A stretch of 40,631 nt of DNA, taken from IMG/VR virus record IMGVR_UViG_3300047666_000570, positions 1 to 40,631 of that record. The stretch is one strand, 5' to 3'. A model generated the notes under the pieces. The model ran no database searches, was not told the origin of the DNA, and saw only the letters and a program-made list of their open reading frames with translations. Shown here piece by piece: positions 3,944-26,987 of this stretch. Position numbers and translations under genes: made by a program. The stretch comes from a virus. The stretch's first letter is position 1; every line of letters starts with the position of its first letter.

Positions 3944-4323
3944 TGCCTAAGCCCAGAGTGCCCCGTACGCGGGGTGATGGGACTCTGACCGAGGCTGCAT
4001 ACTGGGGTAAGATTCGGGGCGCTCTGCGCTCTGGGTCTCTCAAGTACGCTAGTCGCTACGCAGCATTAGCTAAGGCTAAGCACCCTAAACCTAAAGCAAC
4101 CGCAGGACGCCACCGAGTAGAGTTTCGGTGCGCGGCTTGTAAGGGTAGCTTTGAAGGGAAAAACGTAGAGGTAGATCACATTGTCAGGGCCGGTAGTCTC
4201 CGGTGCTATGAGGATCTAGCAGGATTCGTAGAGAGACTTTACTGCGAGTCAAGTGGGCTACAGGTACTCTGTAAGCCTTGCCATAAACTAAAGACAGCTA
4301 AAGACAGGGAAGAAGCAAAATGA
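3943..4323 (+). CDS. HNH endonuclease in the T7 gene 3 position
   Basis: 126 residues with a basic N-terminus and a Cys4-type HNH domain from about residue 60: CAAC, then VDHI (the HNH His), then a final VLCKPCHKLKTAKD block with the second CxxC and HNH His. T7 places endonuclease I (gp3) here; this HNH enzyme probably takes over host DNA breakdown or branch cleavage, but that substitution is inference. It begins at the base where SSB ends and overlaps the next gene as ATGA. Confidence 0.85.
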   Translation: MPKPRVPRTRGDGTLTEAAYWGKIRGALRSGSLKYASRYAALAKAKHPKPKATAGRHRVEFRCAACKGSFEGKNVEVDHIVRAGSLRCYEDLAGFVERLYCESSGLQVLCKPCHKLKTAKDREEAK

Positions 4324-4709
4324 GGCGCGCAAAATTAGACCCAGATGAGGTCCTTTATGTCGTCGTAGGAAGCACCATGACCGCGCCCGATGAGCCCTTC
4401 ACGGATGAGGACGGAATGCACTTCTACATTAACGCTGAAGGTACCGTGACCACACCGGTCCCTGACGATGAGCGAGGAAACTTTTTACCACGATACGGCC
4501 ACAACTCTATTGTCATAATTATTGAAGGAGGATACACGGACGATGGGATACCATCAGCCAGATCCTACTACAGAAACCAGCTATTATCTGTGCAATTTAT
4601 TAGCAGGATGATGCTGCGGAAATACCCAAATGCCAGACTAACCATGTGGCATGAACTTAAGAAAGGAATTAACCCAATACTAACCAGAGAGGACTTATCT
4701 AATGGATGA
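4320..4709 (+). CDS. T7 lysozyme (gp3.5)-like pseudoenzyme, probable RNA polymerase regulator
   Basis: 129 residues. It aligns with T7 gp3.5 through YVVVGST (T7 FVHCSAT), MHFYINAEGTV (T7 YHFIIKRDGTV), HNSIVIIIEGG (T7 HNSIGVCLVGG) and LTMWHELKKGINP (T7 LRAHHEVAPKACP). Every zinc or catalytic residue is replaced: H17 by V15, Y46 by M33, H122 by W110, K128 by G116, C130 by N118. T7 gp3.5 is both an amidase and an inhibitor of T7 RNA polymerase, so I infer that only the polymerase-binding function remains. Position 3-3.5-4 matches T7. The start overlaps the nuclease stop (ATGA) and the end overlaps the reductase start. The homology rests on my own alignment from memory of T7 gp3.5. Confidence 0.7.
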   Translation: MRRAKLDPDEVLYVVVGSTMTAPDEPFTDEDGMHFYINAEGTVTTPVPDDERGNFLPRYGHNSIVIIIEGGYTDDGIPSARSYYRNQLLSVQFISRMMLRKYPNARLTMWHELKKGINPILTREDLSNG

Positions 4710-6579
4710 GTATCAGAAGTTCATTGCATCCAGCAGATACGCCCGATGGCGTCCTGAGGACTCCCGCCGTGAAACGTGGAGCGAGACAGTAACACGCTAC
4801 ACTGACTACTGGACCGCAGAGGCTCCAGAAGGGCTAAGCAATAGGGATCTTAATGAGATCCACAGTGCCATCGAAGGCCTCCACGTGATGCCATCTATGC
4901 GCTGCCTGATGACTGCAGGTCCTGCACTCACGCGGGATAACGTAGCAGGATTCAACTGCGCCTATCTCCCTATAGACAACGTGCGTGCATTTGACGAGAC
5001 CATGTACATACTAATGTGTGGCACTGGTGTTGGATTCAGTGTGGAGCAGGCAGGTATCGACAAGTTACCCATGGTAGCTGAGGAACACCACCTCACAGCC
5101 TCTGTAATCGTCGTAGCGGACTCTAAAATAGGTTGGGCCGCTAGCCTTAAGGAGCTCATAGCGTCTCTGTACGCGGGTTCTGTGCCCTCGTGGGACGTGT
5201 CCAAAGTTAGAGGTCCCGGAGCACGCCTAAAAACTTTCGGCGGGAGGGCCTCTGGTCCCCAGCCCCTAGTGGACCTTTTTGAGTACGCTGTGGAGACCTT
5301 TAAGAAAGCAGCGGGACGCCGACTTACGGCCCTTGAGTGCCATGACCTAGTGTGTAAGATCGCTGAGGTTATCGTAGTCGGAGGTGTCCGTAGGTCAGCA
5401 CTGATATCGCTAAGTGATCCTAATAGCTTTGAGCTCCGTGGAGCTAAGACAGGCCTCTGGTGGCTGGAGAATCCACAACGTGCGCTAGCAAATAACTCCG
5501 CGTCATACAATGAAAAGCCAGCATTTGAGTTCTTCCTCTCCGAGATGAAAGCTATCCACGAGAGCAAGAGCGGTGAACGCGGCATGTTCTCCCGTATGGC
5601 ATGCGAAGCTATTGTAGCTAAGAATGGACGCCGTGAGACAGGACACGCATGGGGTACTAACCCCTGCAGTGAGATCATCCTACGGCCCAACCAGTTCTGT
5701 AACCTGACGGAGGTAGTGATACGCCCTGAGGACACCATTAAGGATCTGACCCGTAAGGTCCGTATAGCAACCATAATGGGAACTGTGCAGGCATCACTCA
5801 CGAACTTCCGCTATCTTCGCAAAGTGTGGAGCGACAACACAGCTGAGGAGGCCCTGTTAGGTCTCTCACTGACCGGCATAATGGACCATCCCGTACTCTC
5901 TAAGCCCACAGATCGGTGTGCAGAGTGGCTCTCAGAGCTCCGTGGAGTAGCTATCATAGTTAACCGGCAGTACGCAGAGAAGATGGGCATTAAGCAGGCC
6001 GCTGCTATCACCTGTGTGAAGCCCAGTGGGACAGTAAGTCAGCTAGTGAATAGCGCCTCTGGTATCCACCCACGCTTTGCCCCATACTATATAAGAACTG
6101 TACGCGCGGATAAGAATGACCCGTTGGCTCAGTATATGGAGAAGGTAGGGTTCCCCTGTGAGACAGACGTTACGAAAGACAGCACGCTGGTCTTCTCGTT
6201 TCCCGTCAAGGCTCCAAAGGGCAAGACCGTGAAGGATGTAGGAGCCCTAGAGCAGTTAAAGCTTTGGAAAACCTACCAAGAGCACTGGTGTGAACACAAG
6301 CCCTCTATCACTGTCTACTACACAGATGATGAGTTTCTGCACGTATGCGCTTGGATGTGGGACAACTTTGATCTACTTAGCGGCATTAGCCTGCTACCAG
6401 TATCAGAGCACACCTACGCTCAGGCACCATACCAAGAGATAGGCAAGGAGTCCTATGAGGCAGCTGTTAAGGCCTTACCGGCGTTCAACGTGGCGGACCT
6501 AGAAGCATTTGAAAGTGATGACCAGACCATAGGCAGCCAAGAGCTAGCGTGTGCTGGAGGATCCTGCGAGCTTCCATAA
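4702..6579 (+). CDS. nrdJ: Class II (adenosylcobalamin-dependent) ribonucleoside-triphosphate reductase
   Basis: A 625-residue monomeric-type class II ribonucleotide reductase that makes deoxynucleotides from ribonucleotides using B12. Visible: FNCAYLPIDN with the first redox Cys, CGTGVGFSVE, GGVRRSALISLSD, the finger-loop thiyl Cys motif NPCSEI, CVKPSGTVSQ, and a C-terminal CAGGSC pair of redox cysteines like CEGGAC in the Lactobacillus enzyme. It is shorter than the roughly 740-residue Lactobacillus protein. No class I beta subunit gene is present, as expected. The host must make or import cobalamin. ATG 4702 overlaps the preceding gene by 8 bases. Confidence 0.93.
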   Translation: MDEYQKFIASSRYARWRPEDSRRETWSETVTRYTDYWTAEAPEGLSNRDLNEIHSAIEGLHVMPSMRCLMTAGPALTRDNVAGFNCAYLPIDNVRAFDETMYILMCGTGVGFSVEQAGIDKLPMVAEEHHLTASVIVVADSKIGWAASLKELIASLYAGSVPSWDVSKVRGPGARLKTFGGRASGPQPLVDLFEYAVETFKKAAGRRLTALECHDLVCKIAEVIVVGGVRRSALISLSDPNSFELRGAKTGLWWLENPQRALANNSASYNEKPAFEFFLSEMKAIHESKSGERGMFSRMACEAIVAKNGRRETGHAWGTNPCSEIILRPNQFCNLTEVVIRPEDTIKDLTRKVRIATIMGTVQASLTNFRYLRKVWSDNTAEEALLGLSLTGIMDHPVLSKPTDRCAEWLSELRGVAIIVNRQYAEKMGIKQAAAITCVKPSGTVSQLVNSASGIHPRFAPYYIRTVRADKNDPLAQYMEKVGFPCETDVTKDSTLVFSFPVKAPKGKTVKDVGALEQLKLWKTYQEHWCEHKPSITVYYTDDEFLHVCAWMWDNFDLLSGISLLPVSEHTYAQAPYQEIGKESYEAAVKALPAFNVADLEAFESDDQTIGSQELACAGGSCELP

Positions 6580-6590
6580 CGAGGATTATT

Positions 6591-7646
6591 ATGAAGACGA
6601 TTATAGTAGCAGCATCCTTTGCAGCCCTAGCAGGCTGTGGAGGCGGCGGCGGTGGTGCATTCGAGCCACGGACCGTAGTTGATATACCCCCAGTGGTCGT
6701 AGAGCCACCAGTTGTTGTGCCTCCAGTGGTCGTAGTGCCTCCTGTAGTGCCTCCTGTGGTAATTCCCGTGGAGCCAGTACAGATGAGTAAGCCTACTGAG
6801 TGCCTCACTGTAGCGAGCGATACGGGCCTCTCAGAGTTCCCCTATATCACCTGTGACGGTGTGCCCACGAGTGGCCCTCAGAGCTACCCCTATGACCCTG
6901 AAAACACTGAGATTGCATTGATCGACGTGTTGGCAGTGGTAGATACCAAGGTAGAGCTGAACGGCCTGACTGTTGAGGAGTTCGTTAAGAAGCAATACGA
7001 CTTTGCTAACGCTATCTACGCTGAGTCTGGCGTGTACATCGTCCTGCAGGTCGCAGGGATCCACATGGTAGACGTTGCAGCTGGTGATCTATTACGCCAG
7101 TACCGCTACTTCACTGGAGCCCGTGGTGAGTTCAGGGGCTTGGAAGACGTGGAGAACGCTAACGACGCTGACTTCTCATTCTTGTTCAAGGATAGGGCAG
7201 CTGAGCCGTGGGCCTGTGGCGTTGCGTCACTGGTAAACGACCGGTCAGACCCTGAGAAGCGCAGAGGTGTATCACAGTGTCACGTTGGTGAAGAGTTCAA
7301 CACCACTGAGACCACTAGGTACTACGAGCGCGCCAGCATTACGTTCATCCACGAGATGGGTCACCTGTTTGGCTTAGAGCATAACATCGAGAGTGCTACA
7401 CTCACCCCTGTCTTTCCGTTCTCTTACGGCTACCTGCTGCCAGAGTACGAAGATGATAAGACAGATGAGTGGAACGGCTATGGCTCAGTAATGAGTTATT
7501 CGGACAAGCCCACCCACAGGATGTCAGACCCTGACGCTACCTTCGAGATCCCCGAGTTGGGCATCGTGGTACCTGTGGGCAGTGAAGTGGCTGATTCAGT
7601 ACGCCACCTCAACCGAGTAAGATACTACATGAGTCAACTTAACTAG
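6591..7646 (+). CDS. Secreted lipoprotein zinc metalloprotease (metzincin)
   Basis: From ATG 6591 the protein has 351 residues. It starts with a lipoprotein signal MKTIIVAASFAALAGC (acylated Cys16), a run of six glycines, then a Pro-Val linker of PPVV repeats (about residues 30-65). The catalytic domain carries HEMGHLFGLEH (254-264), the HExxHxxGxxH zinc site, and a Met-turn candidate SVMSYS 35 residues later. Gly rather than Asp after the Cys predicts outer-membrane sorting in the Lol system. The substrate is unknown. It could act on surface proteins of the infected cell, help release, or alter receptors; these are guesses. Such a gene inside a replication block is unusual and suggests acquisition. 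Confidence 0.85.
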   Translation: MKTIIVAASFAALAGCGGGGGGAFEPRTVVDIPPVVVEPPVVVPPVVVVPPVVPPVVIPVEPVQMSKPTECLTVASDTGLSEFPYITCDGVPTSGPQSYPYDPENTEIALIDVLAVVDTKVELNGLTVEEFVKKQYDFANAIYAESGVYIVLQVAGIHMVDVAAGDLLRQYRYFTGARGEFRGLEDVENANDADFSFLFKDRAAEPWACGVASLVNDRSDPEKRRGVSQCHVGEEFNTTETTRYYERASITFIHEMGHLFGLEHNIESATLTPVFPFSYGYLLPEYEDDKTDEWNGYGSVMSYSDKPTHRMSDPDATFEIPELGIVVPVGSEVADSVRHLNRVRYYMSQLN

Positions 7647-9821: not shown

Positions 9822-10018
9822 TGTATACAATCAAGTATGAGCGCGAAGGCAGGCGACCTAGGACCCTGCAGTACGCAACCCGTGATAGCGCGATGAAGTC
9901 TTGGGATAAGTTCTGTGACGTTGCCGTTGGCGGTGACAAGCTAACGCTTGAGCATCCTAAGGGCTCCATTATATCGCAGTATGAACCTGCGCGGGAGGAA
10001 GACCGTGGGTTGGCGTAG
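9821..10018 (+). CDS. Small protein, 65 aa, unknown
   Basis: ATG 9821 overlaps the helicase stop by one base (TAATG). The 65-residue product is basic, with Tyr/Arg-rich ends and a segment YATRDSAMKSWDKF that looks like a helix. Members of this size often sit next to phage helicases, but I do not recognise it. It overlaps the following lipoprotein gene by 14 bases. Confidence 0.65.
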   Translation: MYTIKYEREGRRPRTLQYATRDSAMKSWDKFCDVAVGGDKLTLEHPKGSIISQYEPAREEDRGLA

Positions 10019-10406
10019 AGGCTTACTCGTCGCTGTACTGCTCGCCATGGGCGCCTGTGGCGCTCTACCTAAGCTATCCGTAACGCCTATTAGCGTGGAT
10101 AGCACTATGGGTGGCGAGCACGAGACAGCAATCGACGAGGATAATATGGTTAAGGTACAGACCGGTGACAGCAGTACCACTCGGTATGAATCAGACACCG
10201 TAGAGCAGATCTACAATGACGTGCAGGAGTACCCGCTGTGGCTCGTGTTGGCATTCGCTATTGCAGTTGGAATAGCCTTACCATCACCTGTGGCCGCTTG
10301 GGGCAACTACCGTCGTCGTAGGTTACTAGAGAAGCAGATAGAGGCCTTAACGAAGGCCCTGTCCAAATCAACCCCGCACTATCAATCAGATATGGAGAAG
10401 ACCTAA
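10005..10406 (+). CDS. Lipoprotein with C-terminal TM segment, candidate unimolecular spanin
   Basis: I choose GTG 10005 because GGGAGG stands 6 bases before it and because it gives a clean signal peptide, MGWRRGLLVAVLLAMGAC, with acyl Cys18 (lipobox MGAC, somewhat relaxed). An in-frame ATG at 9981 is the alternative. The 133-residue protein then has a polar stretch of about 65 residues, a TM helix WLVLAFAIAVGIAL and a cytoplasmic-type NYRRRRLLEKQ end. An outer-membrane lipid plus an inner-membrane TM in one chain is the plan of u-spanins (T1 gp11, 131 aa), which fuse the two membranes at lysis. The next gene is a small membrane protein. The function is inferred from topology. Confidence 0.6.
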   Translation: MGWRRGLLVAVLLAMGACGALPKLSVTPISVDSTMGGEHETAIDEDNMVKVQTGDSSTTRYESDTVEQIYNDVQEYPLWLVLAFAIAVGIALPSPVAAWGNYRRRRLLEKQIEALTKALSKSTPHYQSDMEKT

Positions 10407-10537
10407 TGATATTTTTAGCAATCGGAATCTTAGCATGCACACTGTACCCACCAGCCGTGATCTACATCGCTTCAACGTGGGCCGTGATCTACGTGGTCAC
10501 CTTCACTGCATCGGTTATCAGTGGGCTCTCTAAGTGA
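10406..10537 (+). CDS. 43-aa membrane protein, candidate holin or pinholin
   Basis: ATG 10406 overlaps the lipoprotein stop (TAATG) and the frame ends TGA 10535-10537. The 43 residues are almost wholly hydrophobic: IFLAIGILACTLYPPAVIYI, then WAVIYVVTFTASVISGL, giving two possible TM helices broken at PP, with a single Lys at the end. Its coupling to a spanin-like gene makes a holin role attractive. A second holin candidate exists at 22763-23044, so the assignment is open. Confidence 0.5.
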   Translation: MIFLAIGILACTLYPPAVIYIASTWAVIYVVTFTASVISGLSK

Positions 10538-14238: not shown

Positions 14239-14985
14239 ATGAGGACAGCACTAATAGATGCAGACATCGTTGCGTTTCAAGCAGCGGCTCGCCATGAGAC
14301 TTGGACGGACTTCGGACGCACTGTTGGTGACCTGTCCGAGGCGCAGGCTGACGTGGATGAGATGATAGATAAGCTGATGGCAATGACAGGTAGCACTAGG
14401 TCTATACTGGCACTGACCTGTAAGCAGAAGAACTTCCGCAAGGATATACTTCCCACTTACAAGTCCAACCGAGCTGGTACAGTAGACCGTAGACCTGAGA
14501 TGCTTCAGGCCATGAAGGACTACATGACGCTCAACTATCACACGGACGTGCGCCTAGGCCTAGAGGGTGACGACGTGCTGGGTATCCTACAGGGTAACCA
14601 CATAGACACCATCATCATCAGTGAGGACAAGGACCTGAGGACCATAGCTGGTTCCCTGTACGCTCCCCACAGACCAGAGGTAGGTGAGATAGAGATCACT
14701 AAGCTACAGGCTGACGCATTCTTATGCTATCAGACCATCGTAGGTGACTCTACTGACGGATACAAAGGTGCAACAGGTGTTGGGCCTAAGAGCCTGTACG
14801 CACAGGAAGTCCTTTTGTGCGACAAGGAAGAGCTCTGGGACATAGTGCTTGAGGCCTATGGTAGCGTAGGACTAAACGAAGATGAAGCGTTAGTGCAGGC
14901 ACGTTGTGCACGCATACTGACAGCTGACCATTACAACGAGCGCACAGGTGAAGTGATCCTGTGGACACCGGAGGATATGCTATGA
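14239..14985 (+). CDS. 5'-3' exonuclease (FEN/PIN superfamily, T7 gp6 role)
   Basis: 248 residues. Motifs of the 5'-nuclease family: ALIDADIVAF at the N-terminus, a basic arch region (KNFRKDILPTYKSNR), LEGDDVLG, ISEDKDLRTI, then VGDSTDGYKGATGVGPKSL, the helix-hairpin-helix-like DNA-binding segment with the distal metal-binding Asp. In T7 gp6 this enzyme removes primers and degrades host DNA. It comes after the polymerase as gene 6 does in T7. The end overlaps the next start as ATGA. Confidence 0.93.
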   Translation: MRTALIDADIVAFQAAARHETWTDFGRTVGDLSEAQADVDEMIDKLMAMTGSTRSILALTCKQKNFRKDILPTYKSNRAGTVDRRPEMLQAMKDYMTLNYHTDVRLGLEGDDVLGILQGNHIDTIIISEDKDLRTIAGSLYAPHRPEVGEIEITKLQADAFLCYQTIVGDSTDGYKGATGVGPKSLYAQEVLLCDKEELWDIVLEAYGSVGLNEDEALVQARCARILTADHYNERTGEVILWTPEDML

Positions 14986-15527
14986 GAAGTATCAATGATC
15001 CAACCCCCGATGAGTGGGACTCAGTGCGAGCAATTATAAATGCTAAGGTGCCTGAGCCTAAGTGGACCAGACTGGATCGTAAGGACCAGCCAGAGGTAGG
15101 CACCCGTGAGTGGTATCAGGATAAGTCCCCGTTCAAGGAGGGCTTCTACAAGGGCGGCCGCAAGGTTGCTAAGTTCGATGGCAGCGGGAACCCTAAGGCT
15201 CGTGTGGGCTCCTTAAAGGCCCCTCTCCACCTCGTACCGCCAGCCCTTAGCATTGGGGTAGCTTACGCTTTAAAGGACGGAGCGGCCAAGTACGGAGCTT
15301 ACAACTGGCGTAGTGAGGAGATCAATGTATCTACATACGTTGGTGCTATGTTGCGTCACCTGTATGCCTACCAAGATGGTGAGGATGACGCGCAGGACTC
15401 TGGGCTCAACCACGTGGCTCACGTAGCCTCCTGCTGTGCCCTGCTTATGGATAGTAAGGCCCACGGTAACCTTGTGGATGACAGAAGCACCGGACCAGCT
15501 GCTAGTGTACTTAAGGAGATGTTATGA
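14982..15527 (+). CDS. DUF5664-like (dATP/dGTP diphosphohydrolase N-terminal) nucleotide hydrolase
   Basis: ATG 14982 overlaps the exonuclease stop (ATGA); it gives 181 residues. The core DGAAKYGAYNWR, YVGAMLRHLYAYQDGED, then DSGLNHVAHVASCCALLMD matches the family annotated in phages as dATP/dGTP diphosphohydrolase (DUF5664), with metal-binding His, Glu and Asp in an all-helical MazG-like bundle. It probably tunes nucleotide pools alongside the ribonucleotide reductase. The family call is from motif memory; the substrate is not proven. Confidence 0.75.
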   Translation: MRSINDPTPDEWDSVRAIINAKVPEPKWTRLDRKDQPEVGTREWYQDKSPFKEGFYKGGRKVAKFDGSGNPKARVGSLKAPLHLVPPALSIGVAYALKDGAAKYGAYNWRSEEINVSTYVGAMLRHLYAYQDGEDDAQDSGLNHVAHVASCCALLMDSKAHGNLVDDRSTGPAASVLKEML

Positions 15528-15808
15528 GCAGCATGAACCCCACACCGGACAACTACTTCGAGCCAGACCTTAGCTCCATCGTCCCACAGCAGGAGCATAT
15601 AGTTAATATGTTCCCTGAGATGCAGTATTGGACTCACCCTGATGACCTGATCCTACCCCCCGCAGTATGCGAGAACGGACAGCACACAGGCAATCCCCAC
15701 TGCCCCGTGATAGAGACACCTGACGTAAGCGCAGTGCCCCTGCCAGCAGCCTTATGGTTGTTTATGTCAGCAGTGGTGGGGCTAGTTTGCGTAAGGAGAA
15801 GGAAATGA
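15524..15808 (+). CDS. Protein with C-terminal VPLPA/PEP-CTERM-type sorting signal
   Basis: 94 residues. Positions 71-94 start VPLPAALWLF, continue as a hydrophobic helix and end VRRRK: the three-part VPLPA-CTERM signal that bacterial exosortases recognise (VPLPA motif, TM, basic tail). The first 70 residues are acidic and Pro-rich with two cysteines (PAVCENGQHTGNPHC). No N-terminal signal peptide is present, unlike cellular PEP-CTERM proteins, so it may be a tail-anchored membrane protein. It implies a host with an exosortase or mimicry of its substrates. The start overlaps the previous stop and the end overlaps the next start (ATGA). Confidence 0.75.
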   Translation: MSSMNPTPDNYFEPDLSSIVPQQEHIVNMFPEMQYWTHPDDLILPPAVCENGQHTGNPHCPVIETPDVSAVPLPAALWLFMSAVVGLVCVRRRK

Positions 15809-16245: not shown

Positions 16246-16884
16246 TTAAGGCTTCATCTTCACTCGTCTTCCATGTTTCGCTAACATTCTGGCACCATCT
16301 TCTAGCCGTCCTGCTATCGAACCATTCCCTTTCTTGCTTGCACGATAGTCGTCATTGTCTAGTAGTTCTACACTAGCCTCCTGCCAACGTCCCGCTATGA
16401 TGTGGTCACGCGTGTCTTTGCTCCACCCAAGGTCTCCCCTGTATGCTAGGACAATAAGTTCAGCCTGTAGATCCTCTGGATAGGTGTCCCAGTCCTTGAA
16501 GTATCCCTTAGCCTGATCCTCGTGCGCCTTGAAGGTCTCGTCAAAGGACATATCCTGATAGTCCCCTGTCTGTCCTACGCCTGCTGTAGCTATGTTCTTG
16601 GTGTCCATATAGATACCATCCACATAGGCTTCTTCTTCAACCACGCGCTTCTCAGCGAGTGTCAGCGTACGTCCTTCCATCTGTTCTACCTTAGCTATGG
16701 CGTCCTTACCGTAGTAGGTAGCTGCTGCTAACTCTTTCTTACCTGTTAGCGTCTTCCACTTGGGAGCCGTAGAGGCCGGAGAGCTACGGTCAAAGCCTTG
16801 GTCAAGACTAGCACTGGGGTTGCCAGCGTAGTCATTCCTTAGCTCAACCGTGTTCTCATCTATTGGCTCATCTACGGCTGGGTC
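16246..16884 (-). CDS. GH24 (T4-type) lysozyme domain, reached by -1 frameshift
   Basis: The frame is open from 16896 to TAA 16246-16248 with no start codon before ATG 16680. Read after slippage at 16884-16890 it adds 212 residues to the upstream protein, giving a 903-residue fusion. The domain has the T4 lysozyme triad with exact spacing: EAYVDGIYMD then TKNIATAGVG, so Glu, Asp (+9) and Thr (+15) match E11, D20 and T26. A C-terminal IAGRLEDGARML resembles the end of GH24 folds. It would cut peptidoglycan during DNA entry. ATG 16680 (with AAGG 8 bases before it) could also give a separate 144-residue lysozyme (E17, D26, T32), which would serve as the endolysin; no other endolysin is evident. 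Confidence 0.75.
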   Translation of the reverse strand, partial: DPAVDEPIDENTVELRNDYAGNPSASLDQGFDRSSPASTAPKWKTLTGKKELAAATYYGKDAIAKVEQMEGRTLTLAEKRVVEEEAYVDGIYMDTKNIATAGVGQTGDYQDMSFDETFKAHEDQAKGYFKDWDTYPEDLQAELIVLAYRGDLGWSKDTRDHIIAGRWQEASVELLDNDDYRASKKGNGSIAGRLEDGARMLAKHGRRVKMKP

Positions 16885-18956
16885 TTTCCCACAGCATCAG
16901 ACTCAACAGTATCATCGTTATCACCACGGACATAACTCCTTATCAGATTGTTAATGATCCCACTGTGCCTATCAATAATGGCAGGAGATAGGTTCTTCTT
17001 GAACTCTTCGATGAGCTCATTCTCTAACTCTATCTTACCTTCAGCCGATAGCTTACCAGACTGTCCCATCTGTGCTGCTTCAGAGATCTTGCGTGCGTTA
17101 CGCCGCTGAAAGAACTGACCTATGAAAGGTACTGTAGCGAGCACGTCACCTCCAGCCCCACGGGATGCCATTAGTCGAACGGCGCCCTGTAGTGCAGCTC
17201 TGGCTGTGCCGCTTACGTTAGCCTGCCCTCTGGTGCTTGTGGTACGACCACGCTCACTCCATCTCTCAGCTGCCTTCTGCATCTTAGCTGCCTTGTCTTT
17301 ACCAAACAAAACCTCTTGGCTCTCAGTGTCCATCTTGTTGATACGGGTGTTGAAAGCTTTACCATCGACTACATCCTGTAATCCATCAGCCTTCTTACGA
17401 GCCTTGATAGATGGCATGGCCTTCTCTAGGGCCTCAAAGATCTCGCTGGCTTCAATGTCTTTCCACACCTGCCTACCTTCAGCTGTCTGGTTCAACATCA
17501 ACTTGACCTTGCGTAAGTCTTTGTAGTTACCCTTAGCCTTAAGTGCTCTGATACCGTCCAGTGCCCTCAGTGAGTGCTCCGTGCTACCCTTAGGGATCTT
17601 AGTGATCTTGTCTAGGATGTCACCACGGTTCCATGCGTCGTTCATAGCCTTAGCTTTGACACGTGCTTCCTTACCGAGTCTCACAGGATGGTTAGCTGGC
17701 AGGTTAGTTATATCACCAAAGCCGTCTATCACATACTTATCGAGCGCTTCCTTGTAGGCACCTGCTGCTTGGTTAAACTGCGGGGTGGCCGAATCCCAGT
17801 GGCTGTTAATATCTATGATGATATTCTCAACCTGATCAATTGACATAGGCTTTCCGGGTTTGACGCCGTTCTCTTCTAGCACCTTGTCGATAGTCTTCTT
17901 GAATTCCTTCTGCTTACTGTTTAGCTTGACGCTATCCAGCGTGTTAAAGAATTCACCAGTGTCTACCTTGGTATTCGATCCGTGACTAGCTCGCCACAGG
18001 TCGTACGCCTCATCAACCTGCTTAAGGTCTCCGTCACGTAGGTCCGTGAGTGCCTTCTGCACCCCTTCGCCCTGCTCAATGTCAGTCCTACGGAACCCAC
18101 CGTTCTCAGACGCGAAGCCCTCAGCCTTAGCTTGTATGTCAGCCTCTTGTTTAGCTTCAAACTCTAACGTACTACGGTCACCAGCACCACGAGCATTGTC
18201 GCGGTAGTCTATAGCAGTCTGTGAGCCAGTCATGTCAGCCACGTCCTGTGTGTAGCCACCCTCTTCTTCTACGAGGGCACGCTGTTTAGCTATCCTAGCT
18301 TCCTCAGCTACTACACCATCTGCCATGGCTGTTTTGCCTTGTCGAGCCTGACGGAAGTAACCGCCAACGCCGTCACCGACTGCCTGCATGGTGCCACCAA
18401 GACCAGCTTCAATGATGCCGCCCTTGAGTCTATCTTCCATATCACCACGAGTACCCACTACACCTGTAGCTAAGCCCTCACCTGCAGCGACACCAAAGGA
18501 TGCGTTACGGGTCAAAGCTGCGCCACCACGTGCAGCCAAGAGGCCCCCACGGGCTAACAAGCCTACAGGTGCAATGGCTGCTGTCTCTCCAACGATCTGT
18601 CCGACCGTGGAGATAGCCTTTTGCTCATTGTGGAACTTCTCATACAGTGCGTCTTCTTTCTCACGCCTAGAGTTAAGTGCAGACAGGGCATCCTCATTAC
18701 CAGTAGCCCTGTAGTACCCATCCTTCACGTTGTCTACCATGTTGCTCATACCACGTCCTGTGGCAATCGCAGCGTTCCCTACGAAGTCCTGTGCGCTCTC
18801 ACGGAAGCCTTCGCCCCCAGTGTAGCTCGCAGTACCCATCATCTCATCTGTGTCAGCCTGGATCTGAGCCTGACGTTCCTCTTCTGAGGGACCACTGGAC
18901 TGTGCTGCTTGATACTCTAGGTACTGTTGCCGTCTCTGGTACTCTTTGTAATTCAT
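16872..18956 (-). CDS. Large internal virion protein (gp16-position), zero-frame product
   Basis: 694 residues, the last large virion gene, in the place of T7 gp16 (1318 residues), which enters the cell with the DNA and carries a transglycosylase. Residues about 110-190 form a Gly/Ala-rich hydrophobic stretch (APVGLLARGGLLAARGG), the middle is charged and helical, and a second Arg/Ala-rich segment lies near residue 590. No lytic domain is present in this frame; the GH24 domain lies in the -1 frame beyond it. The start overlaps the preceding gene by one base. Membrane-channel or DNA-ejection function is inferred from position and composition. Confidence 0.75.
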   Translation of the reverse strand: MNYKEYQRRQQYLEYQAAQSSGPSEEERQAQIQADTDEMMGTASYTGGEGFRESAQDFVGNAAIATGRGMSNMVDNVKDGYYRATGNEDALSALNSRREKEDALYEKFHNEQKAISTVGQIVGETAAIAPVGLLARGGLLAARGGAALTRNASFGVAAGEGLATGVVGTRGDMEDRLKGGIIEAGLGGTMQAVGDGVGGYFRQARQGKTAMADGVVAEEARIAKQRALVEEEGGYTQDVADMTGSQTAIDYRDNARGAGDRSTLEFEAKQEADIQAKAEGFASENGGFRRTDIEQGEGVQKALTDLRDGDLKQVDEAYDLWRASHGSNTKVDTGEFFNTLDSVKLNSKQKEFKKTIDKVLEENGVKPGKPMSIDQVENIIIDINSHWDSATPQFNQAAGAYKEALDKYVIDGFGDITNLPANHPVRLGKEARVKAKAMNDAWNRGDILDKITKIPKGSTEHSLRALDGIRALKAKGNYKDLRKVKLMLNQTAEGRQVWKDIEASEIFEALEKAMPSIKARKKADGLQDVVDGKAFNTRINKMDTESQEVLFGKDKAAKMQKAAERWSERGRTTSTRGQANVSGTARAALQGAVRLMASRGAGGDVLATVPFIGQFFQRRNARKISEAAQMGQSGKLSAEGKIELENELIEEFKKNLSPAIIDRHSGIINNLIRSYVRGDNDDTVESDAVGKTQP
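16884..16890 (-). promoter_or_regulatory. Slippery heptamer G GGA AAG for -1 ribosomal frameshifting
   Basis: Minus-strand bases 16890 to 16884 read GGGAAAG, in phase as G GGA AAG in the 694-residue gene. This is the same heptamer used for -1 frameshifting in lambda G/GT. The zero-frame stop is 3 codons later (TAG 16874-16872). The -1 frame continues directly into the lysozyme domain. I see no strong downstream pseudoknot. Confidence 0.7.
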
Positions 18957-23334: not shown

Positions 23335-24885
23335 TTACGAAGTCTTGTCGTATATTTGAATGTAAGTATCAGAGCCTACCTCTGGCATATCGAAATTTAA
23401 GTTAGAGGCGCTCTCGTCCATCAGTTGCCATACGACAGCGTATGCTTCCCCGTATTCACCGTCAGCTATGTCAAAGCCGCCCCATGGGGTCCATCGAGTG
23501 CCTGTGTCTCCATCGGGAGCCACTGGGCTATCAATGACTACCACTGGAGTATTGGCGTTATCTTGGAACACCTGACCAGGGCCGGACTCATAGTAGTGGT
23601 GATATGGGTAAATGCTGTCGTACTCGTTGGCCCCACATCTCTGATAAGCATTGATGTACGAAAAGGTCCCCAAAGGTCCTTCCTTAGATCCTTGTTGCCA
23701 CTCATCATCATCATCGTCATACCAGAACCTTATGGTCTCACCGAGTCTATTCATTACAAGGAATTCGTTGTTTTCACCTACGAACTCAACAGACGAGCCG
23801 AAGTATTCATTAGTGCCACCTGAGGAATCGTTGAAATACCCGCTGAGCACTAGCGAAGTGCTTACACGCTTGAGTACCATTATGTAACCAGCCTGAGCGT
23901 CACCAGTCATAGTAGCTCCGCCCTTAGCAAAGGGTGTCCCACAGACTATCCAAGTTCCAGATGGGGAAATTGCCATTACCTCTGACCCGAAGTTGTTACC
24001 GTAGTTAGCTATCCTAGCATCAGAGTAGCTATCGACTAAGCTAAAGGCACCACTGCCGCCATTGTCCTGAAACAAGTCAATGTGAAGCATATTCTTTGAG
24101 CCGCCATAGTTGTAGTAACCGAAAGCCCCGTAGCTTGAGTCCCTAGCGAGCTTAAGGCCTTTAGGATACTGTCTGCTTGAGGGTGAAACGGATGCAATCA
24201 AGCCAAGGGAAGTCTGCTTTGGTACCCAACCGCTGTTCTTGCCCCACGCCATCATCGCCACTTGCCGAGGATAGTAGCCCTGATATAGCGTATTGATCTG
24301 AAGCGCAGCGAACACATCACTGACCAGCGATGGGTGACTATAGTCGTAGTATACGGCACGCGCTGGTATGTCCCATGCCGCATCATAGACGTAATTAGAG
24401 GAGCTGTGGGCAAGACCACTTCTGTTGTAGAACTTGTAGTGGGATCCCGTGTTCAAGCCACCGTTGCCTATTGCTGCATTAGAGCCGCCAAATTGAACGC
24501 CTACAGAGTTACCATACAACTTACAGACTGCTAGCTCGTCTCCAACGATGCCACCGGTCCATGGTATGACGATGGTGTTCTTTAAGCTGAATTCAGCCGT
24601 AGCGACTGCTGGCTCAAGAGCACTTACCCTGATAATAAGCGCATCCAATCTGTCCTGCACATCTATTCCAACGGTAAGATCATAGGCAGTCGTATTCACT
24701 GCGTGTTGTTGCTCTACGGGTGTACCTACAGAAAACGTACCACCCACCCCTTGCCGAAACTCGGGGTGAGCTTCGCCCAACTTAGCGAAAGCTGCACTAA
24801 CTTCCCTCTGTGCCAAGTTAATATCATCAGCATCAACTGTTACTTGAGCTGCCCAATTTACTGTGGGTTGTAGTAAGTCTGCCAT
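23335..24885 (-). CDS. Tail fibre/receptor-binding protein with beta-propeller-like body, 516 aa
   Basis: 516 residues. The first roughly 95 form the anchor domain shared with the next gene. After that comes a beta-rich body with repeated patterns such as NFGSEVMAISPSGTWIVCG and YFGSSVEFVGENNEFLVM, typical of FG-GAP/beta-propeller blades (GSSV...DG...L-V). An Asp run (DDDDDE) lies near residue 395. Aromatic Gly/Tyr/Ser-rich surface loops suggest binding to a cell-surface polymer. It starts at the base where tail tube B ends. The receptor role is inferred from position and fold type. Confidence 0.7.
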   Translation of the reverse strand: MADLLQPTVNWAAQVTVDADDINLAQREVSAAFAKLGEAHPEFRQGVGGTFSVGTPVEQQHAVNTTAYDLTVGIDVQDRLDALIIRVSALEPAVATAEFSLKNTIVIPWTGGIVGDELAVCKLYGNSVGVQFGGSNAAIGNGGLNTGSHYKFYNRSGLAHSSSNYVYDAAWDIPARAVYYDYSHPSLVSDVFAALQINTLYQGYYPRQVAMMAWGKNSGWVPKQTSLGLIASVSPSSRQYPKGLKLARDSSYGAFGYYNYGGSKNMLHIDLFQDNGGSGAFSLVDSYSDARIANYGNNFGSEVMAISPSGTWIVCGTPFAKGGATMTGDAQAGYIMVLKRVSTSLVLSGYFNDSSGGTNEYFGSSVEFVGENNEFLVMNRLGETIRFWYDDDDDEWQQGSKEGPLGTFSYINAYQRCGANEYDSIYPYHHYYESGPGQVFQDNANTPVVVIDSPVAPDGDTGTRWTPWGGFDIADGEYGEAYAVVWQLMDESASNLNFDMPEVGSDTYIQIYDKTS

Positions 24886-26987
24886 TATAAGGTTACCTTG
24901 CCTCTCGGAGTGTATCGCATTGAGTAGCCAGTGAGGGTTACTTGAGCCTCAGTGGTGCTTTCACGGTTGAATATTACTTGTATGTTATAGCCGGTGCCCT
25001 TGAGCTTAGCCTTGACCCTGCCAAGTCGCTCAGAATTGAAGAGAGCTGTGCCGAACTTAGCCTTGTTGTATAGGGCTGTGCCACCGTTCCTGTAGTACAG
25101 GTCACGAGAGCTATAGGTCTTACTGCCATCATTGAGTGAGTGCCAAGTCTGTACAGTAGTAGGGCCGTTAGCTCTAGCTTCTACTGTGATACCCTCAAAG
25201 CGCTTCTTCTGTGCAGTGCCACCTAAGTGATTGAATGCCAGCTTAACTGTACTGTCTATAGACTGACCATCGAAGGTAGTACCTATATCCATTTCGTACA
25301 CGTAGCCATCATCGCACCCAAACCAAGTCCTTTCGACTCCGAAAGCGTCCTCACCTGTGGACACACAGATTACAGAGTGGTCCAGCTTAAGGGTTGTCAT
25401 ACCATAGCGTACAGTGTCGTTACCGTTAGCTGACTGGTAGGCTATCCTAGAGGCCACTACGGCTTCCCGATCGAAGAAATATCGCATCTGTTCCTTAGCA
25501 CGTATGCTAGTAGAGCAGCTTATGTTCTTCGCCAAGCCAGCGTATAGCTCCTGCATGTTGTTAGTGATAGTAGATGACTGCATACCACCTAGTTGATCCG
25601 TTCTGTTGATCTGTACGATACCTACATCGTCCCCAGAGAACACCTGATCGAGCCTAGTGACAGTAAAGGGCTTTGACCCACTACTATCAGTCAGTAAGCG
25701 GAACTGCCATGTAGCGACTGTGGTACCCTCTAGGCCCCATGTTTGACGCGCAGTGAAGACAGCGAGTAAGTTAGCACTGATCTTGCTAAAGGCTGTAATA
25801 ACACCCCCGACGCCTACCTCAATGGATCCTAAGGTGCCGTCAATCAGATCTGGTTCACCTGTAACAGAGGTAATAAAACCTCCATAGTTGGTAGATGCTA
25901 TTAGTCTGTTCTGGTACTCAGCTACGTGGCTAGATACATCCTGTTGTTCGTTGTAGCTAGTGAAGATAGGTACGATAACGTGCTGCTGTGGGTCGTAGTA
26001 CATGGGACAGTTAACACCGTCAGCGATGTACACCCTGTCAGTCGTTAGACCAGCGTAGAAGTTGAAGTTAATCATATCCTGACGGCCACCATTCGATGGG
26101 CTCCAAGGGTAGTTAGAGACCACTGTGCCCCTATTGATAGAGCCCACGTCAGTGGTGAGGACACCAGACACTACGGCTGCGCTGTTCCTTAAGACATACA
26201 TAGCCTTGGTGGTGCCGTTAGTTATAACACCTTCTACTACCTTATCGAATACACCTAGGACGTACTGTCCGTCTGTGTTGAATGTATCACCAACCTTAGC
26301 TCTGTTTGCTACGGCTATAGTGACTTCATATATCTCTGCTGTGTCTGCAGCGTTCCAGCCTCCTACACCGTTGTACTGCCTGTAGCATACACTCTCTGTA
26401 GAGTTATCCCTGAAGCACAGGAGGTCACCATTGGTCATAACCTGTATGCCAGTGACTTCATCAGTACCCACGGGCGCCTGTATGAGGGCTCGTTGAATAT
26501 TCTGTGGGACCAGTATGTACTCATCGTGTGTCAGTACCTCAAAGGTCTCCGTTGGCTCTCCCTGTGCGATCATGTGCTTGAGGTTGTAGTCACCTGACGG
26601 TGCGAAGTAAGTTATAGGGTAGTCTTCAGCCACCGGAGGGCCAGTTCCGTCACCCTTGAGCAAGACAGCTACTGTGTCAACGCCATCATTTATCTGGTAT
26701 AGCGAAGTCGTTACGTTACCATTGATAGTGTGTGTGGTGCCTACAGCGAAGTCAGACGCCATATCTAGCGGCCCACCATCACCAGCCCCATTGTCAAAGA
26801 CTACCTGATAGTAGCCTTCTTCAGAGGGCCGTTCTTGTCCGTCGTAGCGCTCATAGCCTGCCACTGTGGTGTATCCACCTTTTACGGACTCGTACACGTT
26901 CTCAGCAAGCAATGCTGTACCTGCACCAACGGTGACCGGAGGTGTCTCAAGGTCTAATCCGCCTGATAATTCTACGTACTGATCCAT
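24885..26987 (-). CDS. Tail tubular protein B (T7 gp12-like nozzle)
   Basis: 700 residues (T7 gp12 794). It begins VELSGGLDLETPPVTVGAGTA and contains AENVYESVKGGYTTVAGYER, the opening typical of podoviral tail-nozzle proteins that state where the genome exits. The body is beta-rich, with blades such as VGVGGVITAFSKISANLLAV. It follows tubular protein A directly. Together they form the short tail. Confidence 0.85.
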   Translation of the reverse strand: MDQYVELSGGLDLETPPVTVGAGTALLAENVYESVKGGYTTVAGYERYDGQERPSEEGYYQVVFDNGAGDGGPLDMASDFAVGTTHTINGNVTTSLYQINDGVDTVAVLLKGDGTGPPVAEDYPITYFAPSGDYNLKHMIAQGEPTETFEVLTHDEYILVPQNIQRALIQAPVGTDEVTGIQVMTNGDLLCFRDNSTESVCYRQYNGVGGWNAADTAEIYEVTIAVANRAKVGDTFNTDGQYVLGVFDKVVEGVITNGTTKAMYVLRNSAAVVSGVLTTDVGSINRGTVVSNYPWSPSNGGRQDMINFNFYAGLTTDRVYIADGVNCPMYYDPQQHVIVPIFTSYNEQQDVSSHVAEYQNRLIASTNYGGFITSVTGEPDLIDGTLGSIEVGVGGVITAFSKISANLLAVFTARQTWGLEGTTVATWQFRLLTDSSGSKPFTVTRLDQVFSGDDVGIVQINRTDQLGGMQSSTITNNMQELYAGLAKNISCSTSIRAKEQMRYFFDREAVVASRIAYQSANGNDTVRYGMTTLKLDHSVICVSTGEDAFGVERTWFGCDDGYVYEMDIGTTFDGQSIDSTVKLAFNHLGGTAQKKRFEGITVEARANGPTTVQTWHSLNDGSKTYSSRDLYYRNGGTALYNKAKFGTALFNSERLGRVKAKLKGTGYNIQVIFNRESTTEAQVTLTGYSMRYTPRGKVTL

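Follow-up and report, generated by a model that had tools for sequence, protein, structure and literature searches.

A programmed -1 ribosomal frameshift very probably joins a T4-type lysozyme to the end of a late virion-type protein in the phage genome analyzed here. Most ribosomes would stop at the TAG at 16872 and release a 694-aa virion protein of the ejection type, while a presumed minority would pause at a predicted RNA structure 5 nt past the heptamer G GGA AAG, shift into the -1 frame on this heptamer and read 212 more codons. The resulting 903-aa fusion would carry a linker and a C-terminal T4-type (GH24) lysozyme, and would probably be present in the virion as a minor form that cuts peptidoglycan during genome entry. 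Taken as a whole, an explanation in which programmed frameshifting supplies a minor lysozyme-bearing virion protein for entry appears quite likely. A sequence-only reading of the same DNA had proposed the frameshift that joins the lysozyme to the late protein, and this proposal is borne out by conservation, by selection on the -1 frame, by the predicted RNA structure and by the architecture of relatives.

Genome setting and the slippery site

The window, i.e. the whole 40.6-kb stretch of DNA that was analyzed, comprises positions 1-40,631 of the IMG/VR virus record IMGVR_UViG_3300047666_000570 and belongs to an uncultured podovirus-like phage that resembles T7. A T7-type RNA polymerase and replication genes are encoded on the plus strand, and the minus strand carries the late run in the order terminases, portal (SU10-like), capsid, adaptor (SU10-like) and tail genes, followed by the 694-aa ORF. 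A megablast search of GenBank phages with the 14-26 kb part of the window gave no match, a near relative being absent from GenBank. Other plus-strand genes include possible spanin/holin genes at 9948-10537, which encode small membrane proteins, among them one whose N-terminus is lipobox-like and whose C-terminus has a membrane stretch; a Reprolysin (M12B)-like metallopeptidase of 365 aa at 6549-7646, 92% conserved in the relative G001; and a 94-aa protein at 15524-15808 with a C-terminal VPLPAALWLFMSAVVGLVCVRRRK, a PEP-CTERM-type sorting signal in a phage genome (PF07589, E=7e-4, just under the cut-off). The features of the frameshift locus are as follows.

16872..18956, minus strand: zero-frame gene for the 694-aa presumed internal or ejection protein, last of the late structural run
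16892..16912, minus strand: SD-like GAG (window) or GGAG (relatives L009 and L010), about 10-11 nt 5' of the heptamer, a possible extra stimulator
16884..16890, minus strand: slippery heptamer G GGA AAG, in phase for -1 slippage and invariant in relatives L008, L009 and L010
16872..16874, minus strand: zero-frame stop TAG, three codons past the heptamer and within the 5' arm of the core RNA stem
16681..16884, minus strand: transframe linker, made up of the 68 -1 frame codons that precede ATG 16680 and reaching into the lysozyme domain, whose first helices it encodes
16766..16878, minus strand: predicted RNA stimulator, whose core stem GCCGUAG (16878-16872) / CUACGGC (16772-16766) encloses further paired elements
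16806..16833, minus strand: nested 11-bp hairpin GACUACGCUGG/CCAGUGCUAGUC within the larger fold, in all three distinct sequences
16678..16680, minus strand: first in-frame ATG of the -1 frame, a possible internal start with TAAGG upstream, in the helix at model residues 60-71
16246..16710, minus strand: putative GH24/T4-type lysozyme domain in the -1 frame, running to the stop, with catalytic E, D and T at fusion residues 776, 785 and 791

The heptamer GGGAAAG (16890-16884) is read in the zero frame as G GGA AAG, followed by ACC CAG CCG TAG. After a -1 slip the reading becomes AAA GAC CCA GCC GTA GAT and stays open for 212 codons up to the stop at 16248-16246, which accounts for a product of 903 aa against the 694 aa of the zero frame. 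The -1 frame has many stops immediately 5' of the heptamer; past the heptamer, ATG, GTG and TTG are all absent for 68 codons. Among the 32 genes of the window (11,405 codons), heptamers of the type X XXA AAZ or X XXT TTZ occur in phase only six times, and the one at 16884-16890 is alone both in sitting 12 codons or fewer from a stop and in having a -1 frame that is open for more than 60 codons. The combination of heptamer and open -1 frame is not due to chance. The duplex energy of the SD-like element with the anti-SD is weak in the window (-2.2 kcal/mol) and reaches -5.9 kcal/mol in L009 and L010.

As originally given for this site, the coordinates, the phase, the stop codon, the length of the fusion and the spacing E-(8)-D-(5)-T all proved exact on rechecking. 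The 68-codon run put forward as unexpected for non-coding DNA was likewise confirmed as open and start-free, but is weak evidence if taken alone; the case for frameshifting is strong because of conservation, dN/dS and RNA structure, rather than because of this run. Slippage of RNA polymerase also yields -1 products in some bacteria and might shift the frame in the transcript instead of on the ribosome. It typically requires longer homopolymer runs, however, and the run here is just GGG AAA, placed in an in-phase heptamer with a downstream fold that suits ribosomal slippage, which leaves transcriptional slippage with next to no probability.

Conservation of the site and selection on the -1 frame

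Close relatives of the lysozyme that include the site were found on three IMG/VR contigs from other metagenomes, L008, L009 and L010 (L016, L019 and L018, respectively, in the motif search). All three retain GGGAAAGAC[A/C]CAGCCGTAG, that is, the heptamer followed by AC[AC]CAGCCGTAG, together with the stop and the open -1 frame. L008 and L009 are the same in the linker and count as one sequence, and L010 is another, so that with the window the site is represented in only three distinct sequences; the distant pair L041 and L064 encodes the lysozyme separately. A pattern search of IMG/VR for GGGAAAGAMNCARCCNTAG returned ten contigs, three of which have a long zero-frame ORF before the match and a long -1 ORF after it. 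The remaining seven, without ORFs on both sides, were discarded as chance matches.

An alignment of relatives had been named as the comparison by which the frameshift proposal could be judged, and in it the heptamer and the -1 frame are conserved together in L008, L009 and L010, with no stops in the linker. Peptides that span the junction into the linker would read VGK-DPAVDEPIDENTVELR. Pairwise comparison of the three sequences gives linker dN/dS values of 0.40, 0.26 and 0.27 in the -1 frame, derived from small counts (11 to 16 changed codons per pair); stops are absent from the -1 frame in the three sequences and number 8 and 11-13 in the other frames, and the sole difference in linker length is six bases, a multiple of three. 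These comparisons indicate purifying selection on the 68 linker codons that acts on the -1 frame alone. Another conceivable origin of the arrangement is a single in-frame gene that was split by a sequencing or assembly indel. In-frame C-terminal fusions do exist (L059, L081, L092 and L096), but the same arrangement, heptamer and stop recur in three diverged contigs from other metagenomes, by which an indel is refuted in practice and has a negligible chance of being correct.

Between the window and L008, L009 and L010, identity is 38-40% for the zero-frame protein, 97-98% for the lysozyme and 95% for the portal, and it changes abruptly close to the frameshift site. The site, the RNA fold and the lysozyme therefore behave as one block placed on diverging bodies.

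Predicted RNA structure downstream of the heptamer

A predicted RNA fold, a feature that the sequence-only reading had missed, follows the heptamer in all three sequences. Its 7-bp core stem, GCCGUAG/CUACGGC, begins exactly 5 nt past the heptamer in each of them and has pair probabilities of 0.98-1.0. The fold energy 3' of the heptamer is -51.1 kcal/mol in the window (z -4.9), -48.9 kcal/mol in L008 (z -4.5) and -50.0 kcal/mol in L010 (z -5.4), with z-scores taken against dinucleotide shuffles, and 166 windows of the late region gave a background mean of -0.5 (sd 1.2, lowest -4.4). None of 300 protein-preserving synonymous permutations or resamplings folded as well, in each of the three sequences. 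The modeled fold, at the ideal 5-nt spacing, is thus not explained by the encoded protein. The nested hairpin differs by a single G-U to A-U change among the three sequences; compensatory base changes were not seen in the fold among these sequences, whose pairs are mostly invariant, and the structural support rests on energy and spacing because covariation neither supports nor opposes the fold. The site thereby combines a heptamer in phase before the stop, a -1 ORF under coding selection, conservation and a predicted RNA structure at 5 nt. Elsewhere in the late region, the RNA fold that ranks next in strength (z -4.4) lies at 26716-26839 on the minus strand, inside the tail gene 24885-26987.

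A T4-type lysozyme domain and the internal ATG

Judged by its fold and catalytic triad, the -1 frame encodes a putative GH24/T4-type lysozyme for which muramidase activity is predicted. The Glu-8-Asp-5-Thr triad is invariant in 42 sequences and is surrounded by a conserved GVGQTG region. While the lysozyme sequence of the window has no Pfam match by itself, a profile of six relatives matches P22 lysozyme (2anv, E=7e-4) and T4 lysozymes, and the relative L096 matches Phage_lysozyme (PF00959) above the cut-off. The AlphaFold model of the extension is confident from about residue 45, with pLDDT >90 over most of the domain, and its best PDB fold matches are T4 lysozymes and P1 Lyz (E-values 2e-3 and above, probability 1.0). 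The domain thus resembles the T4 and P22 lysozymes in its E-8-D-5-T triad, its TxGxGQ motif and its fold, but it has extra N-terminal helices, is only ~15% identical overall and would be made as an extension of another protein. In bacterial genomes a single match, in Actinomycetes, came up and was no more than distant.

ATG 16680 had been taken for the only in-frame ATG and for the possible start of a free endolysin; it is in fact the first, and others follow. If internal initiation at this codon gave a free 144-aa endolysin, the heptamer would be fortuitous. The SD-like TAAGG is at usable spacing for such a start, but the 68 codons before it are conserved as -1 frame protein without start codons. 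The product would keep the catalytic helix and a core of T4-lysozyme size, yet the lysozyme domain starts ahead of the ATG, which falls inside a conserved N-terminal helix. The distant relatives L041 and L064 do have a separate lysozyme gene at the same place, in L041 with a signal-peptide-like start, but the uncut relatives with separate genes all start before the position of ATG 16680, L064 and L097 by GTG/TTG. No other active muralytic enzyme was recognized in the genome, which favors a free endolysin; this origin accounts, however, for neither the conserved heptamer nor the RNA fold. Initiation at ATG 16680 in place of frameshifting is thus not favored, despite the TAAGG and the retained core, and we regard it as very unlikely.

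The 694-aa protein and the lysozyme in relatives

The zero-frame partner in the preferred frameshift reading had been called an internal virion protein. Its gene follows the head and tail genes in the late operon, a position expected of T7-type internal virion proteins, and its homologues (38-40% identical in L008, L009 and L010, ~37% in L041 and 29-30% in L064) all lie directly 5' of a lysozyme. The 694-aa protein has no Pfam or PHROG match even at E=1, and tblastn against GenBank phages gave none, so that homology to known internal virion proteins was not found in these three collections. In an hhalign comparison its body did not resemble that of the Vibrio phage VPMCC5 in-frame fusion, and its AlphaFold model (pLDDT 44) was too poor for a fold search. 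The label therefore holds as far as late gene order and relatives with a lysozyme on virion proteins go, but finds no counterpart in Pfam or PHROG matches of the body; a virion role is presumed from gene position and by analogy with other families.

Among 80 IMG/VR loci, the lysozyme is in some cases an in-frame N-terminal domain of very large proteins, in some an in-frame C-terminal domain and in many a short gene. In Vibrio Schitoviridae it forms the N-terminal domain of the virion RNA polymerase, by annotated coordinates. The L092 protein, in which the lysozyme is C-terminal and in-frame, matches phrog_342, 'internal virion protein with endolysin domain'; phrog_37474, in which the domain is N-terminal, matches the same L092 body. 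In L041 and L064 the homologue of the 694-aa protein is followed by a separate lysozyme that starts at a GTG overlapping the stop (GTGA), with the signal-peptide-like start in L041. The Foturvirus H4/4 and also R8W have A AAA AAG within about one codon 5' of the stop. In H4/4 the first 88 codons of the -1 frame contain no start codon; in R8W an SD-like sequence accompanies an ATG a short way past the heptamer, and a separate start is therefore possible there. In the lysozyme tree, H4/4 stands next to the in-frame fusion L040 and away from the window clade, and the joining of this lysozyme to virion proteins by frameshifting seems to have had at least two origins, which differ in the order of the two parts. 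The stretch past the frameshift in H4/4 (L002, 3480-6443) has a sub-threshold match to a staphylococcal nuclease domain (PF00565, E=0.0026), and the large internal virion protein follows it.

Entry or lysis

The presence of the lysozyme on virion proteins in several families argues for an entry role, and by this analogy incorporation of the fusion into the virion and a function in entry are likely, if a little less so than the explanation as a whole. With the frameshift itself accepted, the fusion could instead act mainly as the lysis endolysin, alone or with a minor product from ATG 16680. Its lysozyme is the only intact muralytic domain recognized in the genome, but an unrecognized endolysin may hide among the unassigned genes; L041 encodes an apparently exported endolysin at the same locus, but virion RNA polymerases and phrog_342/phrog_37474-type proteins have the lysozyme as one domain of a large virion protein, and a 903-aa fusion to a late virion protein would be an odd endolysin. 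A predominantly lytic function is hence unlikely, and an endolysin role for either the fusion or the ATG 16680 product keeps a small share of probability because no other intact muralytic enzyme was recognized.

Two other candidates for a lysis enzyme were considered. The plus-strand gene at 4320-4709 encodes a T7-lysozyme-like protein (1lba, E=1.8e-5), but, by our reading of the alignment, neither this protein nor its counterparts in the relatives G001 and G004 have the residues that correspond to two zinc ligands of T7 lysozyme; the protein was dropped as a separate amidase endolysin and is perhaps a polymerase regulator only. The PHROG 2252 label 'endolysin; inhibits RNA polymerase' on 14961-15527 (plus strand) is spurious, the Pfam assignment being a dATP/dGTP diphosphohydrolase domain.

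Comparison with known systems

In the lambda G/GT system, as in tail-chaperone frameshifts, the same heptamer G GGA AAG lies shortly 5' of the stop and a minor, C-terminally extended form is made. The window gene differs in that it does not encode a tail chaperone, its extension is an enzyme domain and a strong downstream RNA structure is predicted. G GGA AAG is reported to be highly shift-prone in E. coli and to be used for g-t in HCTV-5 (PMC5009743). For Alteromonas phage vB_AspP-H4/4 (MF278336), a slippery sequence has been predicted between endolysin gene 39 and internal virion protein gene 40 (PMC5658483). The two cases share a lysozyme of the same domain family (48% identical), a -1 heptamer near the stop and the joining of lysozyme to an internal virion protein. 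In H4/4, however, the zero frame gives the free lysozyme and the extension is the virion protein, the heptamer is A AAA AAG, and the case was published as a prediction only. T7 gp16-type proteins and phrog_342 are likewise late virion proteins that include a muralytic domain for entry; there every copy bears the enzyme, whereas in the window only frameshifted copies would, and no sequence similarity was found between the 694-aa body and these proteins. Frameshift-extended phage virion proteins are thus already known, and one predicted lysozyme case exists; to our knowledge, within a limited literature search, what is new here is the order of the two parts, the heptamer, the RNA fold and the evidence from conservation.

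Implications

A phage must open the cell wall for DNA injection, and excess enzyme would harm the cell it needs. If the proposed mechanism is true, frameshifting sets the share of ejection-protein copies that bear a lysozyme by sequence alone. A bolder extension, to which we give a low but not negligible probability, is that the lysozyme, together with the slip site and the RNA fold, has been placed as a portable cassette behind diverging virion proteins, in which the frameshift product would be the sole peptidoglycan hydrolase, at a dose set by the shift rate, and serve both entry and lysis. Such extensions are overlooked by annotation pipelines, which would report here only a truncated 144-aa gene for the lysozyme. 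As its members occur as genes of their own, as in-frame domains at the N- or C-terminus of other proteins and, in either order, as parts of frameshift fusions, this lysozyme family would offer a natural series for the control of enzyme dose in the virion.
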